Source: Alkalibacter rhizosphaerae
GTDB lineage: Bacteria > Bacillota > Clostridia > Eubacteriales > Alkalibacteraceae
Length of the DNA stretch: 64,000 bases
Assembly (NCBI RefSeq): GCF_017352215.1
Contig: NZ_CP071444.1
Span: 248,001 to 312,000 of the forward strand
Reading direction: 5' to 3'
Shown here: positions 32,330 through 34,392 of the stretch, one piece after another
Numbering within the stretch: position 1 is the stretch's first letter
Layout: every line of letters starts with the position of its first letter
Notes under the pieces: generated by a model
What the model was told of the DNA's origin: nothing
The model's database searches: none
The model's input: the letters and a program-made list of their open reading frames with translations, nothing else
Position numbers and translations under genes: made by a program

Positions 32330-34102
32330 TTAGATCTTTTTCAAAATCAAACCCAACTCTTCCAGTCGGGCCATCTCGGCTTCATCCGGTGCATTGGTCA
32401 TGGGACAACTGTGATTTTGGGTCTTCGGGAAAGCAATGACGTCCCGAATGTTTTCCGTGTGGAGGATCTGCATGACCAAACGATCCAGTCCAAAGGCAAT
32501 GCCGCCGTGGGGTGGCGTGCCATATTGGAAGGCTTCCAACAGGAATCCAAAATTTTCGGAAGCTCGCTCTTCACTAAAACCAAGGGTCTCAAAGAGTTTT
32601 TGCTGCAGATCCTTGTTGTGGATCCGAATGCTTCCGCCACCGATCTCCGCACCGTTCAATACCATGTCATAGGCTCTGGCACGGACTTTCAAAGGATCCG
32701 TGTCCATAAGGTCGATGTCCTCCGGCTTCGGACTGGTGAAAGGATGGTGCTTTGCCACATACCGTTTTTCCTCTTCGTCGTATTCCAACAAGGGAAAATC
32801 GGTGATCCATGCGAACTCATACTTGCCGGAAAGATCCAACTCCATTTTTCGGGCGATCTCCAAACGAAGGGCACCAAGAGAGTCCCAGACCACATCCTGT
32901 TTGTCTGCCACGATGAGCACCAGGTCTCCCGGTTGTGCGTCTGTTTTTACCAGTATATCATTGATTTCTGTTTCTGTTAAAAACTTTTCGATAGGTGACT
33001 TTACTTCCTCTTCCGTGACACGGATCCAGGCAAGTCCCTTGGCACGGTAGATCTTTACGTATTCTACCAAGGCATCGATCTCCCGTCGGCTGAAGGCATC
33101 ACCACACCCTTTTGCGTTGATGGCCCGAACGTCCCCACCCTTGGCAATGGCATCGGCAAATACTTTAAATCCCGTGTCCTGCAAAGCATCCTTGATATCC
33201 ATCAGTTCCAAACCGAAACGAAGATCCGGCTTGTCACTGCCAAAACGGTTCATGGCATCCAGATAGGTCATTCGACGCATGGGCAGTTCCACATCCACAT
33301 CCAGCATTTCCTTGAACAAGGATGCGATCATTCCTTCATTGATGGCCATCACGTCATTTTCGTCCACAAAGGACAATTCGATATCCACTTGGGTGAACTC
33401 CGGCTGACGGTCTTGCCGAAGGTCCTCGTCCCGAAAACATTTGACGATCTGATAATATCTGTCAAATCCGGCCACCATCAAGATCTGCTTGAATAGCTGT
33501 GGAGATTGGGGCAATGCAAAGAAGTTGCCTTTTTGTACCCGGCTGGGCACCAGGAAGCTTCGCGCTCCTTCCGGTGTGGGTTTGGTCAAAAACGGTGTTT
33601 CCACTTCCATGAATCCTTCATCATCCAAATAGTTTCGAATGAACTTGGATACCTGATGACGCACTTTCATGTTCTGGTGCATGCGGCTCTTACGAAGATC
33701 CAGATATCTGTATTTCAATCGAACGCTTTCCTTGGACGTGTCATTGTCGTCGATGTATATGGGTGGGGTCTGGGCCTGATCCAATACTTCCACTTTGTTG
33801 CACAAGACTTCCAGCGTTCCTGTAGTGATATTATCGTTGACGTTGTCCGGATCCCGTTCTACTACCACGCCTTCCACTTGGACCACATATTCGCTTCGCA
33901 AACGGTCTGCCACCAAAAATGCATTTTTATCCGTTTCGCTGTTGAATACCAGCTGGACGATCCCCGTTCGGTCCCGAAGGTCGATAAATACAACGCCTCC
34001 CAAGTCCCGTCGATTTTGTACCCATCCGCTAAGCTTTACGGTGTCGCCCACCTGCTCCTCGGTAATTTTTCCACACATGATCGTTCTGTAATAAGTTTTC
34101 AT
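32330..34102 (-). CDS. aspS: Aspartyl-tRNA synthetase
   Basis: Class II synthetase of 590 residues. Anticodon-binding OB fold at the N-terminus (VKLSGWVQNRRDLGGVVFID), motif 1 and 2 region (YLDLRKSRMHQNMKVRHQV; FRDEDLRQDRQPEFTQVDIE), GAD insertion, and motif 3 GIAFGLDRLVMQIL. It is read from a T-box leader (34130-34357) and is followed by csoR and rseC. The specifier AAC suggests a non-discriminating enzyme that also charges tRNA-Asn with Asp for amidation; no gatCAB is in the window. Confidence 0.97.
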   Translation of the reverse strand: MKTYYRTIMCGKITEEQVGDTVKLSGWVQNRRDLGGVVFIDLRDRTGIVQLVFNSETDKNAFLVADRLRSEYVVQVEGVVVERDPDNVNDNITTGTLEVLCNKVEVLDQAQTPPIYIDDNDTSKESVRLKYRYLDLRKSRMHQNMKVRHQVSKFIRNYLDDEGFMEVETPFLTKPTPEGARSFLVPSRVQKGNFFALPQSPQLFKQILMVAGFDRYYQIVKCFRDEDLRQDRQPEFTQVDIELSFVDENDVMAINEGMIASLFKEMLDVDVELPMRRMTYLDAMNRFGSDKPDLRFGLELMDIKDALQDTGFKVFADAIAKGGDVRAINAKGCGDAFSRREIDALVEYVKIYRAKGLAWIRVTEEEVKSPIEKFLTETEINDILVKTDAQPGDLVLIVADKQDVVWDSLGALRLEIARKMELDLSGKYEFAWITDFPLLEYDEEEKRYVAKHHPFTSPKPEDIDLMDTDPLKVRARAYDMVLNGAEIGGGSIRIHNKDLQQKLFETLGFSEERASENFGFLLEAFQYGTPPHGGIAFGLDRLVMQILHTENIRDVIAFPKTQNHSCPMTNAPDEAEMARLEELGLILKKI

Positions 34103-34129
34103 TGTATCCTCCTCGTTTGCTCTTATAAC

Positions 34130-34357
34130 GGACCAAAGGCTCGCCCCTGACGATGATCGTCAGGGACGAGCCTTCAGCCCGTGGTGCCACCCTGTTTGGT
34201 CAAAATGCGACCCACTTATTTCATAACGCGCTACTGCGCACAAGCTCCAAAGCGTTCTTCCAATGAATGTTTCGTAAAGATGCTTCCAGTCGCGGCATCT
34301 TCTCCCTGGTCGTCTTAGACATTGTACTCCCTTTTTCATAGCCCTTGTATACAATTG
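34130..34357 (-). ncRNA. T-box leader of aspS, specifier loop GAAC (Asn/Glu overlap)
   Basis: A T-box riboswitch: the T-box AGGGTGGCACCACGGG-type motif at 34178-34194 (minus strand) with TGGC complementary to an acceptor GCCA. A perfect long antiterminator/terminator stem (34136-34174) follows. The AAGATGC/GCATCTT apical stem with loop CGCGACTGGAA is stem I. The lower part pairs AAAG/CTTT and CAATG/CATTG around a loop with AGTA on one side and GAAGAACG on the other. The codon adjacent to the stem is AAC (34254-34256) and GAA overlaps it. The U-run after the terminator is weak. A 64-residue open frame across the leader is not a gene. Confidence 0.85.
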
Positions 34358-34363
34358 TTTATT

Positions 34364-34392
34364 ATTATAATTATATATCCCGAAAGTGTCAA
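34364..34392 (-). promoter_or_regulatory. Sigma-A promoter of the aspS T-box operon
   Basis: Consensus TTGACA (34387-34392), 17-base spacer, TATAAT (34364-34369) on the minus strand. Start site about 34357. Confidence 0.9.

Follow-up and report, generated by a model that had tools for sequence, protein, structure and literature searches.

A T-box leader with an asparagine specifier before the only, bacterial-type aspartyl-tRNA synthetase gene of Alkalibacter rhizosphaerae

The aspS gene of Alkalibacter rhizosphaerae encodes the only aspartyl-tRNA synthetase (AspRS) of the genome, an enzyme of the bacterial type, and we have high confidence that the leader in front of it is an asparagine-responsive T-box. 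The window, that is, the whole stretch of DNA analysed, comprises 64,000 nucleotides (contig NZ_CP071444.1, positions 248,001 to 312,000); leader and gene lie on its minus strand, and their coordinates are given as positions in the window. The T-box itself, the asparagine codon AAC in register, its conservation and the G73 of tRNA-Asn come from sequence and comparison, from which we infer the regulation. On this basis the leader very likely answers tRNA-Asn. The chances are about equal that the AspRS is non-discriminating, or that it is not, and the same applies to the two claims taken jointly. A non-discriminating enzyme would be the likeliest single reason for the AAC codon, a judgement that we hold to be about evenly balanced.

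The leader matches the whole of the T-box covariance model RF00230, Stem I and antiterminator included (34159–34348, minus strand; model positions 1–219; 90.5 bits; E = 1.2e-20 in a search of 351 bases and 1.9e-20 in the whole-genome search). The gathering score of RF00230 is 93, and the leader, 2.5 bits under it, was missed by the scan at gathering score. A putative promoter, TTGACA-17-TATAAT, lies upstream (34364–34392) and carries 12 of 12 sigma-70 consensus bases, the promoter scan giving one match against 0.5 expected in shuffles. In the RF00230 alignment, the helix below the specifier loop consists of AAAG (34331–34334) and CUUU (34249–34252), and it is 80.8% paired over 13 leaders. By RNA folding, the antiterminator CAGGG...CCCUG (34161–34194, −14.6 kcal/mol) holds the acceptor-end-binding bulge UGGC (34186–34189), likewise placed by RF00230, and is mutually exclusive with a terminator hairpin of 26 pairs (34128–34182; −52.4 kcal/mol and z −8.5 in the fold of 34125–34205). 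The terminator scan did not detect the terminator of this leader, whose U-tract is short; the congener G001 has a longer one. A weak Rfam match to MIR5387 (34127–34182) was rejected as the leader's own terminator hairpin. The earlier note had located a T-box at 34178–34357, where there is one, though its bounds need a small correction, to 34159 for the end of the Rfam match and to 34128 for that of the terminator hairpin. The gene behind it, aspS (32330–34102), encodes a bacterial-type AspRS of 590 amino acids (NF001750, 871 bits; TIGR00459, 801 bits; both above cut-off). In its machinery the leader is an ordinary T-box; what is unusual is its specifier, which is conserved and recurrent.

The specifier side reads GAA-G-AAC-G-CUUU in the RF00230 register. 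The conserved motif GAA (34258–34260) is invariant in 13 of 13 leaders, those with AAC and with GAC alike; single G residues (34257 and 34253) separate it from AAC (34254–34256) and AAC from CUUU, and AAC is column-aligned with the GAC of relatives. The alignment places no GAC, the mark of an aspartate T-box, at the specifier. The earlier note had read AAC there, had seen no GAC beside the CTTT/AAAG stem and had proposed a covariance-model alignment as the check; both readings came through it. The same GAA-N-codon register also reads the 12 other T-boxes of the genome, and the codon fits the gene in 12 of 12 (metG AUG, proS CCC, pheS UUC, valS GUC, glyS GGA, thrS ACC, leuS CUU, ileS AUC, alaS GCU, CUC for leucine at ilvC, and UGG at both a TrpB-like enzyme and a tryptophan transporter), leaving aspS as the sole misfit. 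Shifting the specifier one base on (ACG, threonine) or one base back (GAA, glutamate) is ruled out by these controls together with the U73 read in tRNA-Thr and the A73 of tRNA-Glu. The whole-genome T-box search found no T-box at asnS, asnB or gatB, and therefore the aspS leader is the only asparagine T-box of the genome.

As the note had also stated, the bulge suits a tRNA with G73, which the genome's own tRNA-Asn and tRNA-Asp both have; UGGC thus matches the tRNA named by the specifier. The leader could still answer tRNA-Asp by near-cognate reading of AAC, given that this tRNA has the fitting G73 and that its anticodon GUC matches two of the three bases. We regard this as unlikely, since T-boxes are described as preferring strict pairing (PMC7778990) and the mismatch falls at the first codon base, yet has been kept in relatives.

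Upstream regions of aspS were examined in 40 relatives of the order and the own genome, and 16 leaders were readable. AAC was found in all four readable leaders of the own family f1 (G000, which is the genome studied here, and G001, G002 and G004), as well as in f3 (G011, G015, G028, G034) and f5 (G009, G013, G017); GAC was found in f2 (G006, G014) and in f3 (G007, G018, G024). In 25 of the 41 loci no T-box was found upstream of aspS, namely in G005 (at a contig edge), G010, G020, G026 and G032 and in all 20 loci of f4 (L120–L135, L143–L146), a family in which no asnS exceeded the cut-off. When Stem I was aligned for 13 leaders of the order, GAA and codon positions two and three proved invariant, with A in eight leaders and G in five at position one. 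Changes on both sides occurred in 17 of 20 helix pairs, a number reached by none of 500 shuffles; 84.8% of cells were paired versus 64.8% in shuffles, and the covariation score was 0.629 versus 0.263, again with none of the 500 shuffles as high. Sliding the partners by one to three columns lowered pairing to 29–46%. That the specifier reflects an error of sequencing or assembly is conceivable in an assembly in which three synthetase genes are split by frame breaks, but AAC stands at the same column in three separate assemblies of f1, and we consider such an error exceedingly improbable. Two observations count against our reading: the bulge of G002 is UGGU, not UGGC, and gatB was not found in the AAC genome G028 at 92% completeness.

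The earlier note had further suggested that the leader perhaps responds to tRNA-Glu, through a GAA overlapping AAC. The base preceding AAC is G, A, T and A in G000, G001, G002 and G004, and the overlapping GAA therefore exists in the own genome only; G002 combines UGGU with UAA at this place. Both copies of the own tRNA-Glu end in A-CCA, and this A73 mismatches the UGGC bulge, whereas tRNA-Asn and tRNA-Asp end in G-CCA. A response to tRNA-Glu is thus unlikely, contrary to that suggestion, and very probably the leader answers tRNA-Asn instead. A close known case comes from Clostridium acetobutylicum, where the T-box before the tRNA-amidation operon is said to have been described by Saad in 2012 and 2013 as binding both tRNA-Asn and tRNA-Glu. 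As far as that description goes, the two systems share the asparagine specifier, the letters GAAC and an AspRS among the genes they precede. They differ in that the clostridial T-box serves a transamidation operon and the present one a lone AspRS, the only one of its genome and bacterial-type, and in that here the G of GAA varies among relatives and tRNA-Glu carries A73. A two-codon T-box of this type, reading tRNA-Asn with AAC and tRNA-Glu with the GAA that overlaps it, would draw on the letters GAAC in the aspS leader and on the relative G006, where GAAC with UGGU precedes aspS2-gatC-gatA-gatB; with a G that varies within f1 and A73 in both tRNA-Glu copies facing UGGC, the leader does not have GAA and AAC both usable, and we give this explanation very little weight.

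The locus of G006 (L178; G006:C2:28700-34500) is worth describing for itself. A T-box reading GAAG-AAC-C with UGGU stands before genes for an archaeal-type AspRS, gatC and gatA, with gatB next, much like the C. acetobutylicum operon, and the same genome also has a GAC leader before hisS-aspS. In G006 each of the two duties has an enzyme and a codon of its own; Alkalibacter has one enzyme under the asparagine codon.

We propose that uncharged tRNA-Asn would bind the leader through pairing of its anticodon GUU with AAC and of its GCCA end with UGGC. The bound tRNA would hold the antiterminator, allowing transcription of aspS, and when tRNA-Asn is charged the 26-pair terminator would form. The sole, bacterial-type AspRS may also aspartylate tRNA-Asn, and GatCAB would then amidate the product to Asn-tRNA-Asn, a route that could run beside AsnRS or in place of it.

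The gene content of the genome, a single contig of 2.45 Mb, was inspected with this route in mind (coordinates of this contig follow). The gene gatB is present (1944313–1945725), and both tRNA-Asn genes read combine G73 with a U1-A72 pair, which GatCAB is described as needing (PMC4206432). GatCAB, judged by gatB, and U1-A72 are thus both in place, a combination that is insufficient by itself to assign a non-discriminating AspRS. The gene asnS, whose absence would have been a further mark of such an enzyme, is present in two frames split by a frame break (1423175–1424550), and it is whole in the congeners G001 and G002; its presence counts against a non-discriminating AspRS. Frame breaks interrupt leuS (L010) and proS (L003) of this assembly as they do asnS (L018). 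An indel error of the assembly is the likeliest cause for asnS because leuS and proS are also broken, and the three splits are probably assembly errors rather than losses of three essential genes. The presence of asnB (707758–709392) is a second point against, since with asnB there is no need for tRNA-dependent asparagine synthesis; no asnA was found in the genome. No archaeal-type AspRS2 was found over the TIGR00458 cut-off of 368.4 bits genome-wide, the aspS product scoring 250 bits. The earlier note had also asked for a genome check, which came out on neither side: asnS without gatCAB, the pattern it had set against its reading, is absent, as is the pattern it had named in favour. With asnS, gatB and asnB all present, the gene pattern therefore neither supports nor refutes a non-discriminating AspRS.

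We then turned to the class as a whole, placing aspS in 393 genomes and searching asnS in the same 393, with 310 over the cut-off. From the aspS loci listed, 120 upstream stretches were taken, hand-chosen for family spread rather than at random, the choice of the last 40 being guided in part by missing asnS or by AAC found earlier in the family. The Stem I covariance model matched 58 of the 120 stretches and three f5 loci, and all 61 read either GAC (44) or AAC (17); three more, G197, G404 and G233, gave GAC when read by eye. AAC leaders of the class occur in f23 (G107, G173, G130, G152), f50 (G330, G243), f69 (G274), f34 (G089), f47 (G186, G121, G417), f68 (G267) and f10 (G418, G220). In G330, G243, G274, G267 and G418 the codon was counted from the 3′ stem because an extra base lies between GAA and the codon. 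Order and class together gave 24 AAC and 52 GAC leaders (n = 76). Leaders of named genomes, read by eye and part of no count, had GAC outside Alkalibacter. G220 has a degenerate leader before hisS (L198, 597–708) with AAC and a AUGGAACC tail, and its close relatives have GAC; as asnA, asnB and aspS2 were unsearched there, it was left outside the 76-genome counts and kept in the HisRS tree. This tree covers 60 genomes with hisS-aspS leaders, f1 lying outside it, and requires eight changes of specifier, six of them forced by well-supported branches.

Specifier and gene content were compared across the 76 genomes. The gene asnA was present in 3/24 AAC versus 32/52 GAC genomes (p = 6e-5 by genome), or in 1/10 versus 10/17 by family majority (p = 0.018). 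On the HisRS tree, with 5–6 independent pairs on starred branches, asnA differed in the same direction in 1.1 pairs and in the opposite one in 0.1 on average, and asnS in 1.8 and 0.1, neither being significant; the asnA contrast between AAC and GAC genomes is confounded by descent. With G000 entered as having it, asnS was missing from 8/24 AAC versus 8/52 GAC genomes (p = 0.13), and its absence from G034, G017, G365 and G418 may reflect incompleteness (84–91%). An archaeal-type second AspRS (aspS2) was found in 0/24 versus 8/52 (p = 0.05), where the eight comprise five over the cut-off and three below it at 336–350 bits, and three f5 genomes outside the TIGR00458 search were entered as lacking it. 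The two groups did not differ in asnB (10/24 and 19/52). Because asnS is missing from 8 of the 24 AAC genomes, AspRS must serve tRNA-Asn there; that 8 of 52 GAC genomes also lack asnS counts against the non-discriminating reading. Within f10, AAC goes with a lack of asnS in G418 and GAC with its presence in all four members counted, but G220 combines AAC with asnS. A further point against is that G330, G243 and G107 are AAC genomes with asnS, asnA and asnB together. Taken as a whole, gene content leans toward a non-discriminating AspRS, without proving it.

These data also bear on a different account, in which the leader answers tRNA-Asn and the AspRS is discriminating; lack of asparagine would then signal the state of the aspartate-asparagine pool, or the codon would have changed by a single base through drift that cost little. 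The asnS and asnB of the genome, the f50 members with AAC and GAC that share the same asnS, asnA and asnB content, and the frequent switching of the specifier (eight changes on 60 genomes) all speak for it, as does the lysK T-box of Bacillus cereus, described as also answering tRNA-Asn (PMC2916919). The retention of AAC across f1 and other clades is unlike drift, however, and AAC occurs in just 3 of the 35 asnA genomes among the 76; we regard this account as plausible but less likely than not. For a non-discriminating AspRS, absence of asnS is not required, given the precedent of Staphylococcus aureus, a firmicute reported to have AsnRS and yet an AspRS serving tRNA-Asn (PMC4206432, PMC6523644).

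The AspRS sequences were compared as well. In the anticodon-binding domain, obtained from 40 of 41 loci, no residue separates AAC from GAC genomes, which counts against a non-discriminating AspRS; the one column that split the two sets of rows is a variable loop position. As a general rule, His or Leu near residue 31 of AspRS tells discriminating from non-discriminating enzymes. Leu stands near this position in 40 of 40 AspRS rows, including the f4 genomes without asnS.

Among known T-boxes, those before hisS-aspS are described as carrying GACAC (PMC5313534, citing Gutierrez-Preciado 2009). The aspS leader has the same Stem I frame, with AAC aligning column by column with GAC, and differs from that description in its first codon base, A instead of G, and in f1 by having aspS without hisS behind the leader. 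Like the B. cereus lysK T-box, it precedes a synthetase gene for another amino acid and would answer tRNA-Asn; in lysK, as described (PMC2916919), that response is partial and stands beside tRNA-Lys, whereas the aspS leader carries an asparagine codon. The literature search covered titles and abstracts, and none of those found states an AAC specifier on aspS; an earlier description in print is possible.

According to an earlier survey, T-boxes before tRNA ligase genes always carried the ligase's own codon (PMC2494555). The aspS leader and its relatives depart from this rule, a departure that would make sense with an AspRS serving tRNA-Asn as well. For bacteria that have AsnRS together with GatCAB, it has been described as an open question which AspRSs have this second role (PMC4206432), and the AAC specifier yields a list of AspRS enzymes for assay. 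We tentatively suggest that AAC may mark lineages in which the one AspRS supplies GatCAB with Asp-tRNA-Asn, including those that still have asnS. The first base of the aspS specifier would have changed back and forth between G and A repeatedly among Clostridia, and the specifier would let a non-discriminating AspRS and tRNA-dependent asparagine synthesis be recognised from the genome sequence.
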